In this document: positions 1 to 20,306 of the stretch, piece by piece
Layout: the number at the start of each line of letters is the position of its first letter
Numbering within the stretch: the stretch's first letter is position 1
Source of the DNA: a virus
Virus record (IMG/VR): IMGVR_UViG_3300031673_006931
Span: 1-21,854 of that record
Direction: 5' to 3' (one strand)
DNA: 21,854 nt
Notes under the pieces: model-generated
Seen by the model: only the letters and a program-made list of their open reading frames with translations
What the model was told of the DNA's origin: nothing
The model's database searches: none
Position numbers and translations under genes: made by a program

Positions 1-2388
1 TACAGGATCGGCTCCCATATCAATGTTCAGATTTTGAATGGTGAAGTCTGACACATCATTCATTGCAAAAACAAAATAGCGTTTCACATTTGCAACAGCA
101 CTTCCTGTAGCACCACTAAGAACATTTAGCCATTTGGTAGCTGGTTCCTTGCCCCATAGATATAGCTGTATGAGACTCGTAGGCACTCCACCTGATGCAT
201 CACCAAGGAATGTAATGTTGTCGCTAGTGATGTTAAAAAGGGAAGATGCTATACTCTCACCACTCTCTATCTCTGGATAGCCCCCTACAATGTCTACGTC
301 TGCATCTGTAGGCCAGACATCCCATGATCCGGCTGGAATGTATATGATGCCCCCTCCTGCTGCCTGAGCAGCCGTAAGAGCAGCATTTATAGCAGGCCAA
401 TCATTAAGACCATCACCTGATACAGCACCTCCCGCATATGACCCATTAGTAATATTGTATGTTAATTTCTGTCCAGCTCCTAGTGTTGTGGTTGTTCCTG
501 CCCCGTAAAGCCATGTCCCAAACGTGGGTGCGGTGCCGTTCTGGTAGTGGTCGGAAAGATTGGTGACTACCCCCACACGATAATAATAGGTGGTTCCTTC
601 TGCCAGTCCATCAATGTCCACATAATTGTCAGCATTGATTCCGAGAAAACGGAAGGTGCCTGCTCCTGTGTTATCAGCAGCTTGGTTATTCACCATAGTA
701 GTTGGTTTCACAAAGTTGGTGGTGGTGCTACGTTGTATCACCCACGGTTTACTCCATGTTTCTGCGTCTGTCCATGTAAGTGACAATGATCTGTGTCCTG
801 CTTCAGCCACGGTCATATCGTATTCAGGGGTAACTCCATCTGATGCTTGCACCTGTTTGGTAGTAGCACTTGTTAATCCTGCATTATCCGTCACTGTAAG
901 ACCAATCGTGTAAGTTCCTACAGTATCATAAATATGAGATGTTGTTACACCTGTTCCTGTGGATGGTGTAACTGTAGCTTCTGATTGTGCATCCGCTATC
1001 TGTTGTGCTCCAAAGGCATCAGCTAATGGGACAGTCAGTTTTAGGTCGGTCCAGCTAAGGGCATCATTCGATCCTTGTATCTTTATCTCTGTGGGTGTCC
1101 AACCTCCTACATCTGCACCTGTAAATCGTGCTCGGTAATCAATGCTCCGAATTGTTTTAGGGGATGTAAGTTCTACATAAATCCATCTGTAATTGCCACT
1201 TGTTGCCGTAAAGCTATCCCAATAAAGTCCACTACTACTACTTTCTCCATTAAATGCATGTTGATTCTCATTCAATCCTGAGACGGAAAATGCATCTGCA
1301 AAAGAAGCACTAAATTCATCTGTCCCTGTCCAATCATCCGACTCATAGCCAGCAATGTTCCATATGGCCCAACGCGCTCCAGCATCATAACTGTCTGCTG
1401 TGGCTTCAAACCTGTAATACGTGTAGGCTTGTGCATCGGCTGTGGTGTCATCAAACGTCCAAGCATAGGAAGCTATAGTTCCGTCTGGATCTGTTGAAGC
1501 ACTGGCATCCACGTTCACTGTAAGAGGAATGTTACCACTCGTGGGCGTAGCTGTGAATAAGGCTACGGGGGAAGCTGGAGCAGCAGCCACCTCTATTTGC
1601 TTCGTGGTGACGCTGGTTAATGTATCGTCGTCCGTCACCGTGAGCGTTATAGTATAGGTGCCTGCTCCTGTAAATGTTGTGCTGTCCGTTGATCCGGTGC
1701 CGCTTGCTGGGCTTCCTGTGTCAAAGTCCCATACATACCCCGCTGGGTCAGCTATTGTGCCGTCAGTGTCGTATGAAGCAGAAGCATCCACGTTCACTGT
1801 TAAGGGACTCGTGCCTGTTGATACGTCTGTAGTGAAGGAAGCTACAGGGTTTGAATTAACTACAGGTGTTGTGACATTCACTGTCTTTGGCTGCGTAATA
1901 GACGTTGCCCCATCATCGTCTGTCACCACTAAGACAATGGAATAGTTACCTGCTGATGTGTAATTGTGAGTGGAGGTAGAACCACTGGTGGTAGTGCCGT
2001 CGCCCCAATTCCATGAATAGCTTGCTATGGTGCCGTCGCTATCCGTCGATGTGGTGCCGTCTACATTCACTGTTAATGGAAAGTCACCTGTCGTTGGCGT
2101 ATAAGTGAAGAACGCTTCAGGAAATGCGTTTTGAGCTACAGGAAGCGGATTATCGCCAGGGTAAGGGTCTGGATTAGGCTCTGTATAAGCAGGAGGCCAT
2201 AAAACACTACCATTAACTATGAGATTTCCATTGATGATAAGGTTTCCATCTATTGTAAGCACAGCCTTACTAGCACTTGATCCTTCTAGGCCGTCCGTGT
2301 CAGGAGTTGGATCAGGCGTATTCTCTATAGGATTATCCTGCGCAAACAGGAAGAGAGGAAAAAGGAATACTATTAGTAATAAGCGCAT
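1..2388 (-). CDS. Secreted-type multidomain protein: signal peptide, PKD repeats, F5/8C-like domain, FN3, pectate-lyase beta-helix (partial, 3' end missing)
   Basis: Reading the minus strand from the ATG at 2388 gives 796 codons without a stop to the window edge, so the C-terminus is missing. Residues 1-17 (MRLLLIVFLFPLFLFAQ) look like a Sec signal peptide. PKD 1 is at about 91-172 (key YSWNWGDG, then GNYSIVLVVTDDDG). PKD 2 is at 179-270 (YVWDFD, GTYTITLTVTDDD). PKD 3 starts at 274-316 and resumes at 473-516 (GTYTIGLTVTDNAG). Between its halves lies an F5/8C (discoidin, CBM32-like) domain with WIYVEL and EIKIQGSNDALSWTDL. An FN3-like domain covers about 527-640 (LTWTD, YVDIDGLAEGTTYYYRV). From 657 the opening of a Pectate_lyase_3 beta-helix follows (SGDGLNDWPAI, GGGIIYIPAG). 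The start is set by a TAATG junction with the upstream tailspike stop. It probably binds and cuts surface polysaccharide. Whether it is a virion spike or a secreted enzyme is open. Domain calls rest on motif recognition, not a database search. Confidence 0.85.
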   Translation of the reverse strand, partial: MRLLLIVFLFPLFLFAQDNPIENTPDPTPDTDGLEGSSASKAVLTIDGNLIINGNLIVNGSVLWPPAYTEPNPDPYPGDNPLPVAQNAFPEAFFTYTPTTGDFPLTVNVDGTTSTDSDGTIASYSWNWGDGTTTSGSTSTHNYTSAGNYSIVLVVTDDDGATSITQPKTVNVTTPVVNSNPVASFTTDVSTGTSPLTVNVDASASYDTDGTIADPAGYVWDFDTGSPASGTGSTDSTTFTGAGTYTITLTVTDDDTLTSVTTKQIEVAAAPASPVALFTATPTSGNIPLTVNVDASASTDPDGTIASYAWTFDDTTADAQAYTYYRFEATADSYDAGARWAIWNIAGYESDDWTGTDEFSASFADAFSVSGLNENQHAFNGESSSSGLYWDSFTATSGNYRWIYVELTSPKTIRSIDYRARFTGADVGGWTPTEIKIQGSNDALSWTDLKLTVPLADAFGAQQIADAQSEATVTPSTGTGVTTSHIYDTVGTYTIGLTVTDNAGLTSATTKQVQASDGVTPEYDMTVAEAGHRSLSLTWTDAETWSKPWVIQRSTTTNFVKPTTMVNNQAADNTGAGTFRFLGINADNYVDIDGLAEGTTYYYRVGVVTNLSDHYQNGTAPTFGTWLYGAGTTTTLGAGQKLTYNITNGSYAGGAVSGDGLNDWPAINAALTAAQAAGGGIIYIPAGSWDVWPTDADVDIVGGYPEIESGESIASSLFNITSDNITFLGDASGGVPTSLIQLYLWGKEPATKWLNVLSGATGSAVANVKRYFVFAMNDVSDFTIQNLNIDMGADPV
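973..1440 (-). other. F5/8C (discoidin)-like domain inserted within PKD repeat 3
   Basis: Encodes residues 317-472 of the PKD protein. YYRFEATADSYDAGARWAIW opens it. NQHAFNGESSSSGLYWDSF and NYRWIYVELTSPKTIRSIDY follow, then EIKIQGSNDALSWTDL closes it, the order seen in F5/8C/CBM32 domains. The flanks (YAWTFDD before, GTYTIGLTVTDNAG after) are the two halves of one PKD domain. Confidence 0.7.
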
Positions 2389-4865
2389 TAGAATCCGTGG
2401 CTTTTAATATCTATTGTGTAAAATTGAAACGCATCTGAAGCATTGTCTACCGTGGCCAATAGCTTTAATTCAATATCACCATCAGTTATGTCGAGTGCAT
2501 GAATACCATTCACCTGTGATGTTGTTGAATTATTCCAATAAGTTCCATGAGAAACCTGTCCTCCAAATCCTGTGCAGTTGATTTCAAATTCAGCTCTGAA
2601 TGAACCAGTTTGTCCAGCCGTCCAAGTCATAGTAACTGGTGTGACTGTAGCACTATCATTATTCATCGTGAACTTAACTGTCTTAGCATCGTTAGTAGAG
2701 CTACCTGTTACCAATCCAGCTAGAACAACTTTAAATCCACCATTCTCATCAATCCTATCAACAGGAATAGTGGCACTCCAAATAGTTGTTTCACTGGTAG
2801 TGCCTGTGTGATCGCGACGATAAGAAGACTGATGGATCAATTGAGCATTATTAGAAATATTATCTCTCACCACACTAGGGAAAGTTAGAATATCAGTTCC
2901 GTATAGCTTCCATTTCACGGCGGCTAAATCCGTAGAGAAGGTTCCAGATGTATGTTCAACCAAGCAAATGTATCCCACATTAGACACTTTAATCACATCC
3001 CCTACTAAATATATCTTACTCGTCACCCAATTCTGTGTTGTATGTGCCACTCTGGAATACGTCTTATTGGTTCCAATTATAATATTGTCAGTGATTATAT
3101 TGTCTCTAGCTCTGCCCACTTCTGCAATTGCATGATGTGAAACTGTAGGAGCAGTTAATTGAGACCAATTCATGACACGATTATTGGTGATGATACAATA
3201 GTTAGCTGCTACAGAAATAGCATTTACACTGGCGTTAATGACATCGCAATTATCAACAATTGATCCTGTGGCCGCTAAAGATAAAGCAATACCACTTGAT
3301 CCTCTGTTTCCTCCATTAACAAATGTGTTAGTGATTTTATTACGCTTTCCAGCAACCCAGATAGAAGGGTGATCAGAACTAGCACTTACCAATGCCCACT
3401 TCACTGCTGTTAAATCGGTAGCAAAGGTTCCAGACGTATGAGCCTCTAAACATCTATAAGAATTTCCTCCATTTGATACAGTGTCATTTACAATATAGGC
3501 AGTGGACGTAACCCACAATGGAGTGGGGATATAATTTACACGGCAATTATCGACGATGTTATCGTGAGCACCTTCCTCGTTTAACCAGATGGCAGACACA
3601 GGGCTTTTGCCTGCATCTGCTGGCTTAGTCACCCGTATGTTTGTAAAAGTATTTTCGTTACATAAGTAGGCAAATTCTAAGCCTTCTTCCCTTGTCTCAA
3701 TACGTATATCTGTAAATTCACAATAAGCACTTGGATCAGCACCAATACCTGTTCCTGTTTTCATACTTACATTGCGAATCCAGCTCTTGTATGCTGACAC
3801 ATAAATACCATATCCCCAGCCTTTGTCATATGCATCAGATGTGGTTTCCAGTCTTAGGTTTTCAATTCCCGCATTGCTGATACAATAAGGAATCTCTGCA
3901 TTCTGGCCTGGTGACAATGTTCCAGTGTTAAGAACTTTCACTACTGGACTTCCAAATGCCGTAGCGTCTGTTACGTAATCATCTCGTAGTGGTTGTTCAA
4001 AAAACACTTGAGCTCCTATGATTTTAGTAACCTTAACAATGACAGAACTTAAATAATAATCAGCTAATTGGGGTGCTGCACCAGCACGTTTTCCAGAATT
4101 GCTACGTTGGCCATCTAATACTGCAATTAAATCTCCAACTGCAAAAGCAGACGCATCTCCTAACGTATCAAGAGTGACATAATTATCCCCCATAGAAGCA
4201 TCCTGTATGTCATACCCTGCCTCGGAGAATACATCTGTAACTCCATCAATCCCTGTGTATGTTCCAAAAAGAATGGATGTAGTGCTCCAAAACAAACCTG
4301 TGCTAAGATTTGTGTTACTAATAATTGTGCTATCACCATCACCGCGAAGGACAGTGTTATCCCTCATTAAAATGTGATCGCTAATATTATAAGTTCCAGC
4401 AGGAAGGTATAAAACACCTCCACCTATTCCTTCTAAATAGTCTAATGCGGTTTGGATAAATGTCACCTCATCCTGAACTCCATCCCCTTTTGCGCCACCC
4501 CAAAGAGCATTAACAGGTGTAGTGAAAGTTCTAATTAAACGTCCTGTAACTACTGTGTCTGCTTTAAATACAGACAATCCATCGGCTGTAGTAGTGGATG
4601 TGGAGTTCCAAAATAAATCAGGTCCAAACTTTCCATCATTAGCTGTGTGATAACCATTGCATTTAACCCTCGCACCATTGGCCACCTGTGAGAAATCAAA
4701 GGCTTCCATCTGTGCCACCGTATCAAACTCTAATTGTGCTCTGCCTGATACAACACCATTAACTGTGACATTCTCAACAATAAGCGTGGTGTTATCCCAT
4801 GTGCGTATAACATCCTGTCCAAAAAGGAATGTGGGAAGAAGGAATAGAAGGAATAGTTTTTTCAT
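2388..4865 (-). CDS. Tailspike, pectate-lyase-like beta-helix with signal peptide and two inserted carbohydrate-binding-like modules
   Basis: This 825-aa protein is probably the receptor-binding or depolymerase spike. Residues 1-17 (MKKLFLLFLLPTFLFGQ) form a Sec-type signal peptide, unusual for a spike. Residues about 45-115 are the region common before spike beta-helices (FDTVAQMEAFDF, GRLIRTF). Residues 118-185 match Pectate_lyase_3: WGGAKGDGVQDE, GGGVLYLPAGTYNI and LRGDGDSTII. A run of beta-helix rungs follows to about 680 (repeated N-x-I and V-D-N-C patterns). Two modules of the W-x(4)-Y...Y-x-C-x(3)-HTSGTF-x-TDL-x(3)-KW type interrupt the rungs at 451-493 and 613-655. The last 135 residues look like a beta-sandwich cap. 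The gene overlaps its neighbours by 1 nt on both sides (TAATG), with the anchor-protein gene just upstream. Catalytic residues cannot be assigned from the sequence alone, and an adhesin without enzymatic activity is possible. Confidence 0.85.
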   Translation of the reverse strand: MKKLFLLFLLPTFLFGQDVIRTWDNTTLIVENVTVNGVVSGRAQLEFDTVAQMEAFDFSQVANGARVKCNGYHTANDGKFGPDLFWNSTSTTTADGLSVFKADTVVTGRLIRTFTTPVNALWGGAKGDGVQDEVTFIQTALDYLEGIGGGVLYLPAGTYNISDHILMRDNTVLRGDGDSTIISNTNLSTGLFWSTTSILFGTYTGIDGVTDVFSEAGYDIQDASMGDNYVTLDTLGDASAFAVGDLIAVLDGQRSNSGKRAGAAPQLADYYLSSVIVKVTKIIGAQVFFEQPLRDDYVTDATAFGSPVVKVLNTGTLSPGQNAEIPYCISNAGIENLRLETTSDAYDKGWGYGIYVSAYKSWIRNVSMKTGTGIGADPSAYCEFTDIRIETREEGLEFAYLCNENTFTNIRVTKPADAGKSPVSAIWLNEEGAHDNIVDNCRVNYIPTPLWVTSTAYIVNDTVSNGGNSYRCLEAHTSGTFATDLTAVKWALVSASSDHPSIWVAGKRNKITNTFVNGGNRGSSGIALSLAATGSIVDNCDVINASVNAISVAANYCIITNNRVMNWSQLTAPTVSHHAIAEVGRARDNIITDNIIIGTNKTYSRVAHTTQNWVTSKIYLVGDVIKVSNVGYICLVEHTSGTFSTDLAAVKWKLYGTDILTFPSVVRDNISNNAQLIHQSSYRRDHTGTTSETTIWSATIPVDRIDENGGFKVVLAGLVTGSSTNDAKTVKFTMNNDSATVTPVTMTWTAGQTGSFRAEFEINCTGFGGQVSHGTYWNNSTTSQVNGIHALDITDGDIELKLLATVDNASDAFQFYTIDIKSHGF
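2901..3029 (-). repeat. Carbohydrate-binding-like module, tailspike copy 2
   Basis: Encodes tailspike residues 613-655: WVTSKIYLVGD, GYICLVEHTSGTF, STDLAAVKW. Built like phage modules resembling CBM5/12 (aromatic-rich, 40-45 aa). At DNA level the part around 2908-2954 is close to 3394-3440, suggesting recent duplication. Confidence 0.65.
3387..3515 (-). repeat. Carbohydrate-binding-like module, tailspike copy 1
   Basis: Encodes tailspike residues 451-493: WVTSTAYIVND, SYRCLEAHTSGTF, ATDLTAVKW. It interrupts the beta-helix between rungs ending VNYIPTP and resuming HPSIWVAGKRNKITN. Confidence 0.65.
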
Positions 4866-5749
4866 TATGAACTGAAATAAAATATTAGGTCAGAAGGTGT
4901 CTTGGTTGTTTTAACAATGATTTTTACAGTGACGTCCCGTGTAGCGGTGAGGGCAGTTCCTACAAGATTTATGATCACAAACTTTCCAATAGCCGTTATT
5001 GTAAAATCAACAGCTTCTGCCCCTGCCTTCCCACCAAGAATATTATCGGTGTTAGAAATGATAGTGGTGGAATCACCGCTCACATCTGTAATCAAATATT
5101 TCCTTATTCTATGACTTCCAAGAGCATTTACCACCCCATGTATCTCTATTTCTGTAGAAGTGTTAGAAATCGTGACGATAGACAAGCAAAGAGGCAGTGT
5201 AGAAAACGCTGTCATGCTGTATGTTCTACTTCCTGAGCCTGTCCCAGCCAATATCTCATCAAGGCTCTGCACCGTGGGATCTCCAGCGGCATCAAAGGCA
5301 AAATATTTATCCTTCCTTACAGAGCGCAATGGAAGTTCCTGGGCACCTGCTGTCTCATCCTCAGAAGGAGGAAACTTTAAACTTCTGTCTAATTCCTCCT
5401 GTTGTTGCTGGTCTATCATTCTGGCCTTGTCATGCCCGTCCTCATTCGTCTCTGGAGGAAACTTAGTGTTAGAAACATAGTTTCCTGTCTGTGTAAGAGG
5501 AACAGACCGTCTGATGGTCATGAAGTCGCCTATGGCCTGTCCTATGAACGTCACTGTGCAACCAGCCTCTACACCTACGTCTGACACGGTGTAGTCTGCG
5601 CTAGAGCCCATAGTAAGCGTTGTGTCTACAGCCGCCCTTGTTCTGATGACAACAATGTTAGAGGCTTGTTGAACGTGTATCTGCGTAGCCACTGCGTCTG
5701 TTCCTGTAGCTAGTGTTACCTGTTTCTTAAAATTTGTAGACGTTACCAT
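4865..5749 (-). CDS. Tail fibre/spike anchor protein with T7 gp17-type N-terminal domain
   Basis: This 294-aa protein likely attaches the receptor-binding proteins to the tail tube. Residues about 30-127 follow the N-terminal pattern of T7-like fibres and podovirus spikes: DYTVSDVGVEAGCTVTF, then TIRRSVPLTQTGNY, then a helical stretch with DKARMIDQQQQEELDRSLKFP. This pattern is usually followed by a clause like LPLRSVRKDKYFAFDAAGDP, seen here at 139-159. The remaining 130 residues are beta-rich and unrecognised; they may hold a small domain or the docking site for the next protein. There is no long receptor-binding part, so this is effectively an adaptor whose distal function is moved to the two downstream genes. 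It ends in a TAATG overlap with the tailspike start. No Shine-Dalgarno sequence precedes the ATG, but a TATAAT box lies in the 40-bp gap upstream. Confidence 0.75.
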   Translation of the reverse strand: MVTSTNFKKQVTLATGTDAVATQIHVQQASNIVVIRTRAAVDTTLTMGSSADYTVSDVGVEAGCTVTFIGQAIGDFMTIRRSVPLTQTGNYVSNTKFPPETNEDGHDKARMIDQQQQEELDRSLKFPPSEDETAGAQELPLRSVRKDKYFAFDAAGDPTVQSLDEILAGTGSGSRTYSMTAFSTLPLCLSIVTISNTSTEIEIHGVVNALGSHRIRKYLITDVSGDSTTIISNTDNILGGKAGAEAVDFTITAIGKFVIINLVGTALTATRDVTVKIIVKTTKTPSDLIFYFSS

Positions 5750-12198: not shown

Positions 12199-15100
12199 TT
12201 AGAATATCTTATATTTTACTATAAGAGAAATAATACTAAGTGGTAAGGGTTGCTTCTGTGAAATAATAATTTTGGGATCATTGTTTTCCGGTTCGTCACC
12301 TAATGTAGAGTTCCAATTGATACGCTTCTCTCCCGTAAACACCGGAACAGCTACGTCCATAAGATCTTCTGTAGAATTAAATGGATGAACGTCTTCAACC
12401 GTTCCATTGCTAATAGAGCAACCTACAGACTTATTAACCCGCAGATTAATCTCTGAAATCATTTTCTTATGACCTTGGCTACTTCCAATAATACTGTCTA
12501 TGTCCAATCGCATTGGCTCATATACAGAATAATAAGGGATGCCAGCATTGATTAAAACAGCAGGAGTGGATATTAACACTTCGCCTGAAGAATCTACCGT
12601 TGCATTATTCTGCGGACTTCCATCACCTAAAATACTCACTTCTTCACCAGCCAAATGCAATAGACCTGTCACTCTGTTTGAAATTACAGTTCCCATAACT
12701 GTAGAACTTCCAGGATTAGGAGCTATAGCAATAGTGAATTGATCGTCTGCGGGAATAGTTAAAATAACAGCATTGGCCTTATTGTATTCCGATGGGGCCA
12801 TACCGTCTAAAGTAACTTTATCTCCCACCTGTAAGCCATGATCTGAGGCAGTTGTATAAGTGGCTATGTCCGCTGACCATGTAGCAGCAGTAATGTCTAG
12901 GTTATTATTATATTCTAACCCACAATCCACATAATATGCATCTCTGATTTGAGTCCATGTATCAGGAGAAAAGTATTCTACAAATCTCTTAAGGGTTCCC
13001 GATAAATTACGCCTCACTGTGTTATAAACTACATCATTATCGCTCCCCCGTAATATCGCTACACTTTCATAATCTGTTTCATTAGTGCTCATTGCTGAAG
13101 TGAAGCTGCTCCATCCGGCAATGTTTTCATCTCTACCATACACAAGGACACCCATATCGCCGTTGCCCATAACACAATAGATGTATGGTTCTCTCAATTG
13201 AGAGTAAGCAATATCGACAATGCCTCTTTCAGCTATTTCATCATTGAGCCTGTTTAAATCGTTCGCTTTGTAGCCCCCTGTAACCCCCGCTGTGAAGTCG
13301 TAGGCTATTTCGCGAAGTCTACGTCCATTACGTTCCACTCCGGCGAATATAGGGCCGATTATGCGAGGTTTAATGTGGTTAAATCCAATGGCTTCCTGTG
13401 ACCTGTAAGCAGCATTAGTGGGTGTAATAGGAAGGTCATCAGACCCAGAAGAAAGGATTCCATATTCTTTTCCTGTTCCAATCAAAATACTCTTACCGCC
13501 TATAATCCATTCAATAGGATTTTGCTCTGTAGCAGGAATACCATAGGAGAATGCATGGGTGTCATTGATGCCGTATTCAAAGTTGTAAAATTCTCCTATC
13601 CTCGATCCCCATATCTTTAAGGGCTCATCAATATTACCGGCATACACAATACGCTGTTCATGCATGTCACAGGTTCTTGGATAGCCTCGTCTTGGCGACC
13701 AACTGGATTCAGCCCATAAGTCTGTGGCTCTTGTTGATTCAAATTGGTCTACTACAAGAACATCTGCTATAGTATCACCTCTATAGGTGGTCATCTTCCC
13801 ATAGCCATAAATATAAGCAGAAACAGCTTCTAATGTAGCAGTGGCTTCGTAGGTCGAAGTAGGCGTATGTGCTCCAGATCCCGATCCATCTGTAATTTGT
13901 GCGCTGTCTGAATATATAAGTTTTAAATCAGCAGAGACTTCATTGGTTCCGGTGGCTAATAATGCTCGACGGCCATCTCTTACAATAGCCTCATAAACTG
14001 TTTCTTCGATAGCTGTTACAGGATCAATTCTCTTCACCTGTATCTTGCCGTCAAATGCACCTTGTGTTGATAAGGTCCAATCGCCTAATACATTAGTAAG
14101 CGTAACATTGCCGTTAGTTGGCGTGTTTGCTGTGTTTAGCAATTGTAATTCTACACTTTGTGATTCTCTCCGATGACCTAAACGATAATGACCATTTACA
14201 TTTGCTGTAGTGAACACTTCTATCTTCTCCCAATTGGCAGCAGCCAAGTCTGTAGAGAATGTGTTTGATGTGTGAGCAGCTATACATTTGTAAATACTCC
14301 CATATACAGATGCCGTTGCTGGTGCTGATACAAAAGTTCCTGGGTCTGGTGCTGTAACAACAATTGTGGTGGCTGTAACAGCATCTACAGGAAGTTGTGT
14401 AATATTGTAGAGAGAAGGGTTTACCCCTCTTACAGATATTATATCCCCTGTATTAAATGGATGACCAGCAGTCACCGTAAATGTTATTTGTCCAGCAGTC
14501 CACGAGCCTCCAGTGATGATAGCCTGCAATTGTAAATACTGCTCCACTTTATAATAAGTGGCTGTAGCCCATCCAGGGGCTTTTGCTTGCAACTCCACGG
14601 TAGTTCCAGCTCCTGTAGTGCCTGTTGGCTGCAATGTTATAGCTGAAACATTCTCATCCCTGAATGGAGGCAGATCAAATACAATAGGGGCTATGTCAAA
14701 TGTTGGAGTGGTGGTGAGTCTGCGTAAAATATATGGCTCATAGTCTTTGTGTGTCAGATAGACAACATCATTAACCTGCCTGCGTTGCACTTTCCTTAAA
14801 TCAGCTTCCGCATAGGGAGTTACTAATTCAAGGGGTTGAGTGACTTCTCCTGGAGTTGTGAGAACTCCTGGATAGGCTACAGGACCTTGTAACGTAAATT
14901 GATTAGCCGCTGGAATGCTTAGCACCCTGCCTGAAATGTTATAACCTGTAGGAACTAACCCTGATACTGTTACATCATCGTCTACGCCAAGAACATGATT
15001 AGTTCCTGTAGTGTAAGTGACAACACCTCCAACAGCCCATGATATTGCTGTAACCGTGTTAGCATCTCCAGCAACTCTGGAATACCCATCATAGAAACGT

Positions 15101-15363
15101 AAATAGTTTTCACCTGCCTCGATTATATATCCTACCTCAGAGGAATATTGAAATTCCCATACTACAGCAAATCCATTGTTCTTGGTGTTATTGATATATT
15201 TACTGCCTGGTCGCCTCTCTATCATCCCATATGGACGAATAAGAAAGTTCTCTAACTGTCTACAGGCATAGCTGTATTTCTCAAGGTCTATGCGACCGTC
15301 CAGCTTGGACGACCATATACCACTATTAAAATTAAGAAGGCTCTTTTGTGTTTTTCTAGCCAT
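12199..15363 (-). CDS. Tail tube protein B (T7 gp12-like, enlarged by inserted beta modules)
   Basis: I place the start at the ATG at 15363 (MARKTQKSLLNFN, 1054 aa), sharing one base with the upstream stop (TAATG), rather than at an in-frame ATG 33 nt further upstream. Residues 5-60 carry the podovirus nozzle signature: NFNSGIWSSKLDGRIDLEKY, then LENFLIRPYGMIERRPGSKYI. T7 gp12 is 794 aa. The excess is explained by three FCCH-like repeats (about 104-166, 286-353 and 825-893) and a carbohydrate-binding-like module (265-381) like those in the tailspike. The conserved core resumes with QFESTRATDLWAESSWSPRRGYP (540-562) and HEQRIVYAGNIDEPLKIWGSR (568-588). The protein forms the distal tail nozzle to which fibres attach. 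The surface modules could help adsorption. Confidence 0.88.
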   Translation of the reverse strand: MARKTQKSLLNFNSGIWSSKLDGRIDLEKYSYACRQLENFLIRPYGMIERRPGSKYINNTKNNGFAVVWEFQYSSEVGYIIEAGENYLRFYDGYSRVAGDANTVTAISWAVGGVVTYTTGTNHVLGVDDDVTVSGLVPTGYNISGRVLSIPAANQFTLQGPVAYPGVLTTPGEVTQPLELVTPYAEADLRKVQRRQVNDVVYLTHKDYEPYILRRLTTTPTFDIAPIVFDLPPFRDENVSAITLQPTGTTGAGTTVELQAKAPGWATATYYKVEQYLQLQAIITGGSWTAGQITFTVTAGHPFNTGDIISVRGVNPSLYNITQLPVDAVTATTIVVTAPDPGTFVSAPATASVYGSIYKCIAAHTSNTFSTDLAAANWEKIEVFTTANVNGHYRLGHRRESQSVELQLLNTANTPTNGNVTLTNVLGDWTLSTQGAFDGKIQVKRIDPVTAIEETVYEAIVRDGRRALLATGTNEVSADLKLIYSDSAQITDGSGSGAHTPTSTYEATATLEAVSAYIYGYGKMTTYRGDTIADVLVVDQFESTRATDLWAESSWSPRRGYPRTCDMHEQRIVYAGNIDEPLKIWGSRIGEFYNFEYGINDTHAFSYGIPATEQNPIEWIIGGKSILIGTGKEYGILSSGSDDLPITPTNAAYRSQEAIGFNHIKPRIIGPIFAGVERNGRRLREIAYDFTAGVTGGYKANDLNRLNDEIAERGIVDIAYSQLREPYIYCVMGNGDMGVLVYGRDENIAGWSSFTSAMSTNETDYESVAILRGSDNDVVYNTVRRNLSGTLKRFVEYFSPDTWTQIRDAYYVDCGLEYNNNLDITAATWSADIATYTTASDHGLQVGDKVTLDGMAPSEYNKANAVILTIPADDQFTIAIAPNPGSSTVMGTVISNRVTGLLHLAGEEVSILGDGSPQNNATVDSSGEVLISTPAVLINAGIPYYSVYEPMRLDIDSIIGSSQGHKKMISEINLRVNKSVGCSISNGTVEDVHPFNSTEDLMDVAVPVFTGEKRINWNSTLGDEPENNDPKIIISQKQPLPLSIISLIVKYKIF
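12685..12891 (-). repeat. FCCH-like repeat C in tail tube protein B
   Basis: Encodes residues about 825-893. Key features are ASDHGLQVGDKVTLDGMAP, then SEYN, then a FTI strand and a closing STVMGTV. The same order (H, GD, V-x-G, YN, F-T, P-G) occurs in repeats A and B of the same protein. The similarity to the ubiquitin-activating-enzyme FCCH family, which is often matched in phage tail proteins, is from memory of the family pattern. Confidence 0.6.
14221..14571 (-). repeat. Split carbohydrate-binding-like module in tail tube protein B
   Basis: Encodes residues 265-381. The first part is GWATATYYKVEQYLQ (264-278). The second part (357-381) is IYKCIAAHTSNTFSTDLAAANW plus three residues, matching the tailspike modules almost residue for residue. 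The two parts are separated by about 80 residues containing FCCH-like repeat B, whereas the tailspike copies have only about 15 residues there. Confidence 0.6.
14305..14508 (-). repeat. FCCH-like repeat B, nested in the carbohydrate-binding-like module
   Basis: Encodes residues about 286-353. Key pattern: AGHPFNTGDIISVRGVNP, SLYN, TTIVVTAPDPGTF. It resembles repeats A and C and lies between the two parts of the module at 14221-14571. Confidence 0.55.
14866..15054 (-). repeat. FCCH-like repeat A in tail tube protein B
   Basis: Encodes residues about 104-166. Key pattern: GTNHVLGVDDDVTVSGLVP, GYN, a short turn, NQFTLQGP. It is the first of three related repeats in this protein. The GD of the other copies is replaced by DD. 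Confidence 0.55.
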
Positions 15364-15959
15364 TATCCAGGTTGTATTTTTCTGGCTGCTATCCAAGGGC
15401 TATCCCCTACAGGATTATAAAATCGTTTGCGACGTTCGTTAGCGTCTATTTTTTGTGCTTCTGGCAAATCAACACGCTTAAATCGTTCTGCCAAGAATCC
15501 ACCAAGTTCTGTGTCTTGTGAAAGACGAAAGGCTAATTTACTAGCCAATAATGTAATGACGCATCTACGCAATAATGGGTCCCATTGTGGGACATTCTCA
15601 TTATAGCCTATATATGTAATTTTACAGGAGGTTGCGTCTGTGAGAATATCTCTACCCTCAATCTCGTAATAGTCTTCTTTGTAATTTGATGTGTCGTCGT
15701 AGCCGTTCACCGTCATAAGCCTTACACATTGTGTAGGGAGGGTGTAGCTATAATCCCATCCAAATACAGGAGTGTCATTTAAGGCTAATTGCTGCCTGGC
15801 TTTTAAACAATTCCAAGGATGCAAGCGCATCACTTGTCTAGCTGTAGGCTCGAATAACAACTTACAAGAACGAGCTGCGTCATTCGTTGTATCATTAATG
15901 TCTACGATGACACTCTGACCTATTTCTGCTAGGGCTTCGTTGCAAATGGATGTGGGCAT
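15363..15959 (-). CDS. Tail tube protein A (T7 gp11-like)
   Basis: A 198-aa protein, close to the 196 aa of T7 gp11. It forms the adaptor ring between portal and nozzle. The family pattern is clear: ICNEALAEIGQ at residues 5-15; a Cys/Leu helix with ARQVMRLHPWNCLKARQQLAL at about 40-60 (key HPWN); GWDYSYTLPTQCVRLM at 67-82; YYEIEGRDILTD at 97-108; WDPLLRRCVITLLASKLAFRLSQ at about 125-147. It is the first gene after a hairpin terminator downstream of the capsid genes and shares one base (TAATG) with the tail tube B start. No Shine-Dalgarno sequence is seen before its ATG. Confidence 0.9.
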   Translation of the reverse strand: MPTSICNEALAEIGQSVIVDINDTTNDAARSCKLLFEPTARQVMRLHPWNCLKARQQLALNDTPVFGWDYSYTLPTQCVRLMTVNGYDDTSNYKEDYYEIEGRDILTDATSCKITYIGYNENVPQWDPLLRRCVITLLASKLAFRLSQDTELGGFLAERFKRVDLPEAQKIDANERRKRFYNPVGDSPWIAARKIQPG

Positions 15960-18442: not shown

Positions 18443-18666
18443 ATCTTTTTATGTAAGTGTTTGTATTGGTTTACTGCTAAATCTCTAGCTGTGCAGGGAA
18501 ACGATTGTTCCTCAGTGGTGGTCATATAAAGATATTTCCCTATCCATCGGTTGTAATAACGCTGTTGTAATGGGCTTCTTTCACCTTCCTTACCTAGCAT
18601 TGCTATTACATCATCCCGCTCTCTCTCTATAGCACTTGTGTCTTTCTTCTTATTTCCTAGCATCAT
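18439..18666 (-). CDS. Small protein of unknown function between portal and scaffold
   Basis: A 75-aa charged protein that I do not recognise. It has a helical first half (ERERDDVIAMLGKEGERSP), then an aromatic, basic stretch (QQRYYNRWIGKYLYMTTTEEQ), and ends in a Lys/His-rich helix. There is no signal peptide, membrane segment or Cys pair (a single Cys at 58). It overlaps both neighbours by 4 nt at ATGA motifs, which strongly supports it being translated and made in step with portal and scaffold. An assembly helper or small head component is a guess from position only. Confidence 0.7.
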   Translation of the reverse strand: MMLGNKKKDTSAIERERDDVIAMLGKEGERSPLQQRYYNRWIGKYLYMTTTEEQSFPCTARDLAVNQYKHLHKKI

Positions 18667-20306
18667 CTAATATTCTTCTCAATCTCACTGCCCGTCTTGC
18701 CCATTTCTAGGGCCATTTGCATTTGCTGAGCCTTGGCTTGGGCTTCACGCGCTTTAGCTACATCCTCTGCTCCAAACAATTCTTCTTCTGGTTGGCCAGA
18801 GTCTTTCCACAGGTTGCGATATTTAAGGTCCCAATTAGTATTATCCAGCACTTCGGGTCTCACTTGCACCACAAGGGCTATTGTCTGTAGGAATTGCATG
18901 AAGCTATTAGACCTCACAGCCTTCATAGCCATTGCCAGCTTGGACGTGAATATTAATTGAGGCAGTTCTATTTCTCCTGCCTGTTCTGATTCTGGATCAG
19001 TGACGACTAAATGCTGAATAATGTCATTAAACTCACCAGTTCTTAGCATGATTCCAAACACACGCTTCAAATAGAGTTCTATCACCTCTTCGTCCAAACG
19101 TGAAAATGTAGGAGAAGCACGTCCCACTTGTTCTTCCAGCATTTTAGCTGTTTCAAAAGCTGTTTTCTCGCGTTGGCGTTCGCTGTCTGATGTAAGCAAT
19201 TTGAATAAAGGAACAAAGAATGAATCCTCTAGCTTCCGTATATCCCTATCCACCATGTCCTTAGACACGTTATAGTCTCCTGCGTATTTCCATTCTCTAG
19301 GAAGGTTCATAGCAGCATCCTCTAATGTGGCTACGGTGACGCCGAATGGGTCTGGATCATCCTCTTGCCCTGGACCTACAATAATGCCTGGGGAGGTGAC
19401 ACGGTTTCCTAATGCTTGTAGTGTCTGCTCTTTCTTTTGAAGGCTTCGTGCTCTTGAAAGTTGAATATGGGAAGGGCCTGTTCCATACGGGCTATCTCCC
19501 CATCTGTTAAATCGAGAACACATAAAAGGCTGCTCTTGATAGCCTCCTTCTCTTACCAAATTTTTGTCATCAAGGCAGACGTATATGCTGGCCCACGACA
19601 TCTCTGAAGGAATATCAGAACCAGGCTTCACACCTCTGATACGTGGTTCCACCATGTGATAGAATTCAAACTTTTCTTCCTGCTTGGCTGGATTGTTGAC
19701 AGCCTCCATCACCTTAGCACCGAGTTTGTCTGTCTCCTTCTTGAATTTTTCTTTGGCTTGTCTGGCTGTAAGCTTAAATTTCCTGACAAACAGATCCACC
19801 TGCTTTTTATGGTTTTCAGCTATGGCGTATTGCCCCACTGGTATATGTGTATGGAAAATCAAATCTTCCTCGTCTTCTTCGACTAAAATGAGAGACGTAT
19901 GCATTGTGGACCTGTCTGCAAGAAATTCTTGTATCTCCAATTTAAAATTACTCTTATCAATCACTTTACGCATACGCTTGCCCACTATGCTGTATGCCAT
20001 CTCTTTATCGTGGTCTTCTTCTCCTAGTGATTCCTGTGGAGCCTCTGTTTCAAACCAATCTCCTGTGAATAGCAGGTCATATTGTCCTTGTGCCAGTATC
20101 TGCGCTGCTTCAATGGGGGCAGGATCATAAATGTGGTCATACCAACCAGCATCCGTTCCTTTGCCCTTCTCTTGGGTTTGTATTTCAGAACGTCTAGGAA
20201 TGAACAAACTCGCTACATCATCGGAGATGGTCTGATTATTAATGTAATGCTGACTATTGAATAATCCGTCTGCGCGTTGAATGTATGAATCTGCTGAATC
20301 TGGCAT
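18663..20306 (-). CDS. Portal (head-tail connector) protein
   Basis: A 547-aa protein (T7 gp8 is 536 aa) that forms the 12-fold ring at the packaging vertex. Family features: W55-YDHIYDPAPIEAAQILAQG, then LLFTGDWFE (to about residue 86), the clip/stem lead-in; RFNRWGDSPYGTGPSHIQLS (residues 265-284), the Head-tail_con signature; LQKKEQTLQALGNRV with GIIVGPG after it; and a C-terminal Ala/Gln/Met helix (AKAREAQAKAQQMQMALEMG), a likely barrel that enters the capsid. The ATG follows the Gly-rich gene by 5 nt. A GGAGG lies 12 nt upstream but falls within that gene's last codons. The 3' end overlaps the 75-aa gene at ATGA. Confidence 0.92.
   Translation of the reverse strand: MPDSADSYIQRADGLFNSQHYINNQTISDDVASLFIPRRSEIQTQEKGKGTDAGWYDHIYDPAPIEAAQILAQGQYDLLFTGDWFETEAPQESLGEEDHDKEMAYSIVGKRMRKVIDKSNFKLEIQEFLADRSTMHTSLILVEEDEEDLIFHTHIPVGQYAIAENHKKQVDLFVRKFKLTARQAKEKFKKETDKLGAKVMEAVNNPAKQEEKFEFYHMVEPRIRGVKPGSDIPSEMSWASIYVCLDDKNLVREGGYQEQPFMCSRFNRWGDSPYGTGPSHIQLSRARSLQKKEQTLQALGNRVTSPGIIVGPGQEDDPDPFGVTVATLEDAAMNLPREWKYAGDYNVSKDMVDRDIRKLEDSFFVPLFKLLTSDSERQREKTAFETAKMLEEQVGRASPTFSRLDEEVIELYLKRVFGIMLRTGEFNDIIQHLVVTDPESEQAGEIELPQLIFTSKLAMAMKAVRSNSFMQFLQTIALVVQVRPEVLDNTNWDLKYRNLWKDSGQPEEELFGAEDVAKAREAQAKAQQMQMALEMGKTGSEIEKNIR

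Follow-up and report, generated by a model that had tools for sequence, protein, structure and literature searches.

Does one complete domain sit inside another in the protein encoded at the end of this phage contig, and what would such a protein do? The gene lies in the window analysed here, the 21,854 nucleotides of IMG/VR virus record IMGVR_UViG_3300031673_006931. A first-pass annotation, made from the letters alone, had read its product as a phage spike in which a carbohydrate-binding F5/8C domain interrupts a PKD repeat. PKD domains are commonly spacers, and F5/8C or CBM32 domains commonly bind glycans. Domain insertion and circular permutation are each uncommon, and in this gene they appear to be combined. 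Both kinds of domain are already known; what is new here is the nesting of an apparently permuted F5/8C domain within a PKD domain.

Domain organization of the gene

The gene (1..2388) and all features described below for it are on the minus strand. It is an ORF of 796 aa, in frame throughout, whose 3' end is cut by the contig end. Read directly from the translation, the protein starts with a hydrophobic stretch that resembles a signal peptide, MRLLLIVFLFPLFLFA, with Q as the next residue (2341..2388). Three PKD units come next. PKD1 (residues 90-172; 1873..2121) was matched by the Pfam models PKD_4 and PKD, and PKD2 (residues about 180-267; 1588..1851), with its visible repeats, by PKD_4 in four stretches. 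PKD3 is found in two parts, residues 272-315 (1444..1575) and residues 476-513 (850..963), between which lies an in-frame stretch of 160 codons (residues 316-475; 964..1443) that comprises an F5/8C-type domain and short linkers. The remaining two regions are both conserved in L009, the homologous gene of another phage contig. One is predicted to have a Fibronectin-III-like (FN3-like) fold (residues 522-616; 541..825), with a match to Pur_ac_phosph_N below the Pfam threshold (23.6 bits, cut-off 30). The other (residues about 655-796; 1..426) resembles the beginning of a pectate-lyase-like beta-helix, and NCBIfam models of rhamnogalacturonidase and alpha-d-galacturonidase match it weakly.

A PKD domain in two parts

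The motifs used in the first-pass annotation are found where it placed them in the translation of ORF 2388..1, with PLTVNVD at residues 104, 195 and 288, YAWTFDD at 308-314, and GTYTI at 243 and 491. It had further proposed Pfam searches with the insert alone and with the joined flanks. The insert alone matched PF00754 (F5_F8_type_C) with 35.2 bits (cut-off 28.2), and the joined flanks, with linker residues kept, matched PF18911 (PKD_4) with 58.4 bits (cut-off 27 bits). Both searches, together with an uninterrupted PKD in L009, bear out the claim that PKD3 is split by an F5/8C-type domain. Its limits for the insert, residues 317-472, were a few residues off; the best limits, set by the joined PKD score and the fit to the L009 PKD, are 316-475.

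When the flanks were cut at these limits and T315 was joined to S476, the PKD_4 score reached 74.9 bits over positions 2-79 of the 85-position profile. The first half alone scores 33.8 bits (profile 2-43) and the second half 31.9 bits (profile 46-80). The two halves are thus complementary, since they are adjacent in the profile without overlap and their joined score is higher than the sum of the separate scores. The joined halves exceed the curated cut-off of the family (PF18911/PF00801) across the domain, and both flanks match single solved ColH PKD domains, for example 4u6t at chain residues 21-45 and 52-83. PKD3 has the ColH strand motifs in common with the PKD domains of the ColG/ColH collagenases (PF18911/PF00801), but here 160 residues follow the WTFDD strand before the domain resumes. 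At the level of sequence, the split of PKD3 is real and confirmed. A paper retrieved under the same abbreviation is not relevant here, PKD standing there for the pyocin-knob domain (PMC11823257).

Strand order of the inserted domain

The PF00754 match of the insert falls on its core (residues 358-464; 997..1317) and stops at position 81 of the profile (6-81 of 127), so that in the usual order of strands the insert does not match along the whole profile; on other F5/8C profiles its C-terminal part is matched only after being moved to the end. Ordinary phage F5/8C domains, such as those of Erwinia phage RisingSun, Bacillus phage G, and Pectobacterium phages ZF40 and DU_PP_I, end with the strand pair AYxYYRLxIT...IxEIxL. 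The first ~36 residues of the insert (AYTYYRFEATA...) correspond to these last strands, and the strand pair AYTYYRFEATADSYDAGARWAIWNIAGYES (residues 321-350; 1339..1428), assigned by profile match and rotation tests, stands first in the insert. With a Pfam match that ends at 81 of 127 and the closing strands placed ahead of the core, the insert reads as a circular permutant. The F5/8C identity proposed by the first-pass annotation thus holds for the family and not for an ordinary domain. Like other F5/8 type C domains (discoidin, CBM32-like; PF00754/PF22633), the core from AFNG to SNDALSW matches PF00754 above the cut-off; it differs from the ordinary ones in having the last strands in front and in being seated within another domain.

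Rotation of the insert raised its score on phrog_16348 from 23.9 to 35.4 bits (+11.5) with a continuous alignment to profile positions 459-582, and a shuffled control gave no gain (24.2 bits). On a profile of 8 ordinary domains, the rotated insert scored 44.7, compared with a mean of 36.7 (sd 1.0, maximum 39.8) for 500 shuffles. A profile of 25 ordinary domains (length 143) gave 41.0 for the rotated insert and a mean of 31.4 (maximum 37.2) for 500 shuffles; in its native order the insert has two separate matches on this profile, and they are reversed, with hmm 105-133 (the insert front) before hmm 15-86. The gain is broad across junction choices. A profile in permuted order shows only a modest preference for the native order of the insert (35.6 versus a shuffle mean of 31.3 and maximum of 36.9), and on Pfam PF00754 rotation gave no gain (35.2 to 34.4 bits). 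The YYYR strand of the FN3-like region, put in the same position, reached 41.6 on the profile built from 8 ordinary domains; YYR by itself is thus an unspecific motif. With the YYR pair before the core, none after it, and a rotation gain above that of shuffles, as in permuted phage F5/8C domains, the inserted domain appears to be circularly permuted.

Searches of viral contigs, phages, plasmids and genome contigs returned no close relatives of the insert, and one candidate (L007) was dismissed as a chance match. In a tree of rotated domains, the window domain is nearest to the permuted rows, on a very long branch (2.8) that makes its placement unsure.

Permuted F5/8C domains in other phages

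Viral contigs were searched with the pattern YYRxxxITANNG, and 20 of the 21 stretches found are in ordinary order. The exception, L037 (3949-4377, plus strand), has a domain that begins with AYRYYRIYITANNG, and its protein stops at KTFSLV, before the usual place of that strand. When the L037 domain was rotated, its PF00754 score rose from 33.3 to 41.1 bits, the profile was completed to 127/127, and the best PDB match improved from E 0.018 to 3.4e-7. In its permuted order the L037 sequence found matches in 50 phage records, and in 44 of these the match covered 80% or more of the L037 sequence. Ten loci were read, and the permuted order was found in Caulobacter phages of the phiCbK type, Brevundimonas phage Gurke, Bordetella phages FP1 and CN2, Xanthomonas virus PB119, Burkholderia phage FLC8 and contig L043. 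All eight permuted phage domains that were tested gain 6-16 bits on rotation. Permuted F5/8C domains are thus present in about six phage groups, including two IMG/VR contigs.

The domains of L037, L043, phiCbK gp101, CcrPW, Gurke, FP1, CN2, PB119 and FLC8 gp89 share the strand order of the window insert, in which a YYR/YWR strand precedes the core and none follows it. They differ from it in their low identity and in that they were not seen nested, their flanks having been read by eye only. A limited search showed no further nested permuted F5/8C domain. As judged from these sequences, the permuted F5/8C domain is a recurrent phage tail domain, and its nested position in the window is the unusual part. 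The domains at L037 and L043-L051 belong to tail proteins of several unrelated phages and have partial Pfam coverage. Since Pfam matches to permuted phage tail F5/8C domains stop short, such modules are probably under-annotated, and a dedicated family model would make them easier to annotate. The open-access papers searched contained no description of permuted F5/8C/CBM32 domains.

The site without the insert in a homologue

The C-terminal region of the gene (window 2-840) recovered gene 5446..7806 of L009 (IMGVR_UViG_3300023284_000930) from viral contigs, with 76% identity over 280 columns of the shared downstream part; no relatives of this region were found in genome contigs. L009 is a phage contig whose gene order matches that of the window: the gene for a tail-fibre adaptor of 294 aa is followed by a beta-helix gene that begins with a signal-peptide-like segment, and then by the homologue. 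The homologue shares with the window gene the signal-peptide-like start, PKD, the FN3-like region and the beta-helix. It has a single uninterrupted PKD directly before the FN3-like region, whereas the window gene has three PKD units with the third one split. The L009 loop FGDGNTGTGVTPSHTY aligns where the window reads FDDT, the insert and then STGTGVTTSHIY, and no F5/8C domain was found in the L009 contig. The uninterrupted PKD of L009 represents the state without the insert. Most simply, the insert would be a gain in the window lineage; it may instead have been lost in L009, since the PKD copy number differs too (three versus one).

Structure predictions

AlphaFold2 with the single sequence gave a mean pLDDT of 36. 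With alignment A5, composed of window, L009, L006 and phage F5/8C rows, the mean pLDDT was 46, and the YTYYRFEATA strand and the TEIKIQGSNDALSWTDL region were the best predicted parts. In trials with MAFFT, PKD and F5/8C fragments displaced one another, and A5 was chosen among many row sets for fitting the proposed arrangement, so the A5 model is not independent support for it. Foldseek with this low-confidence model placed collagenase PKD domains first, with E 0.15 at best, and no F5/8C chains were noticed near the top. In a second fold comparison (VIA), both chain ends of the model co-align on PKD chains with Z about 3 (best 3.3). The A5 model does not decide for or against the nested fold.

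Proposed arrangement and alternatives

From the interruption of PKD3, the matches of its joined halves and of the insert to their families, the uninterrupted PKD of L009, the permuted strand order and the presence of that order in other phages, we consider it probable that the third PKD of a three-PKD stalk received an in-frame insert of one circularly permuted F5/8C domain, which would serve as a glycan-binding side arm. A single F5/8C (discoidin/CBM32-like) domain would have been inserted into the PKD3 loop following the WTFDD strand, the counterpart of GDGNTGTGVTP in L009. The strand pair that ends the ordinary fold (YYRxxxT...) would come first in this domain, and the chain would stop where that pair usually starts. 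With such a strand order, the two ends of the domain should be close to each other, at the cut beta-hairpin, and the domain could thereby replace a short loop and leave the PKD sandwich unbroken. The PKD repeats would form the stalk from which the F5/8C domain projects sideways to bind a surface glycan, and the C-terminal beta-helix is predicted to bind or cut polysaccharide. If this is true, the protein would be a natural example of a receptor-binding protein that gained a side-facing binding module and kept its stalk.

The segments TADAQ (residues 316-320; 1429..1443) and IADAQ (residues 464-468; 985..999), at the two ends of the insert, are direct repeats with 13 of 15 nt equal (P 0.005 by codon shuffle, and P 0.03 against random zone pairs of the same gene). 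In a domain of ordinary order this segment would occur once, just before AYTYYR, and we suggest that copying of a permuted unit out of two tandem domains could have left it at both ends. A target-site duplication was rejected as its source, the repeat being imperfect, of moderate significance, and inside the insert according to the PKD join. More broadly, the permuted F5/8C domain may be a phage domain format, with ends at a cut hairpin that permit both loop insertion and end-to-end addition; in that case the window would capture the act of insertion itself and TADAQ/IADAQ would be the leftover of a tandem-pair copy, a scenario that we put forward tentatively and regard as doubtful.

Other explanations start from the same observations. 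The two PKD halves might be what a deletion left of separate PKD copies, on either side of an independent F5/8C domain. PKD copies do come and go among the relatives (3 versus 1), and the structure prediction stayed at low confidence. Such an origin is nevertheless very unlikely, given that the halves are adjacent and non-overlapping in the profile, score above their sum when joined in a way that fits the intact L009 PKD, and, in the low-confidence model, have both chain ends co-aligning on single PKDs (4jgu, 4xed). An ordinary F5/8C domain, truncated or degenerate, that lost its last strands and follows 40 residues of unrelated linker or strand pair would agree with the PF00754 coverage of 6-81/127 without rotation gain, and with the YYR-like strand of the FN3-like segment that reaches 41.6 bits in the same position. 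The rotation gains on phrog_16348 and on our two profiles, which exceed all shuffled controls, and the equal order in about six other phage groups with clear permutation make this unlikely. Exact repeats of 9 nt are shorter than the usual assembler words. An assembly artefact in which the contig fuses two genes is almost certainly not the explanation, as the exact part of the direct repeat is only 9 nt, the 160 codons of the insert are in frame on both sides without a stop, and its GC content (0.447) is similar to that of the flanks (0.511 and 0.404), even though the contig is metagenomic, a short direct repeat lies at both insert ends, and a second record with identical junctions was looked for and not found.

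Function of the product

Beta-helix proteins behind a tail-fibre adaptor gene are normally spikes. Judged from its domain families, the product is most likely to act in the tail region, where the insert would form a lateral, glycan-binding arm of a beta-helix protein. Solved carbohydrate-binding modules, those of hyaluronidase, NagJ, chitosanase and GH92 mannosidase, are matched by a profile built from ordinary phage F5/8C domains. The name of phage spike given by the first-pass annotation should be read as putative: the whole protein matched no PHROG family at E 0.01 and showed no tail-spike-family similarity, the beta-helix is weakly recognised, and the start resembles a Sec-type signal peptide. 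Owing to this start, a virion-bound and a secreted product are both possible.

A carbohydrate-active protein secreted during infection, which the nested domain would anchor to polysaccharide, is a plausible reading in place of a virion spike, though on the whole we hold it to be not probable. Signal-peptide-like N-termini are present here, in the neighbouring gene 4865..2388 and in the matching L009 genes, and the similarity to tail-fibre N-terminal regions sits on a separate 294-aa gene (5749..4865). In this gene, the neighbour and their L009 counterparts, such a start with Q behind the likely cleavage site fits the Q-rule of exported proteins in Bacteroidetes (PMC5837995) and hints at a Bacteroidota host. 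The position of the gene directly behind the tail-fibre adaptor gene and the tail-spike families matched by the neighbour 4865..2388 argue instead for a spike.

Other genes of the window

Sec-type signal-peptide-like starts are unusual for phage tail proteins. They were observed in two spike-like genes on the minus strand of the window, at 2341-2388 (MRLLLIVFLFPLFLFA, then Q) and 4815-4865 (MKKLFLLFLLPTFLFG, then Q), and in the L009 spike-like genes at 3488, 5446, 7824, 8441 and 10797. The neighbour 4865..2388 (minus strand) also matched Pect-lyase_RHGA_epim, and two copies of CBM_5_12 (residues 451-497 and 613-660) were found within this beta-helix protein.

The tail gene at 12199-15396 (minus strand) contains three copies of a module (residues about 111-185, 289-366 and 831-910) with the consensus ITxxSWxxGxxTYTTxxxHxLxxGDxVxxxGxxPxxYN. 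At residues about 275-390, a CBM_5_12-like module (GWATATYYKVEQYLQLQ ... YGSIYKCIAAHTSNTFSTDLAAANW) is seemingly split by this repeated tail module. Its Pfam score of 15.6 bits is under the cut-off of 26.2; the joined halves scored 40.1 against a shuffle mean of 36.1, with 1 of 300 shuffles as high. This may be a second nesting in the same phage. The portal and tail genes (18663-20306 and 12199-15396, minus strand) have only distant kin among named phages, with about 29% identity in the best tail match, to Pelagibacter phage HTVC010P, and the phage probably belongs to a little-known podovirus-like lineage.
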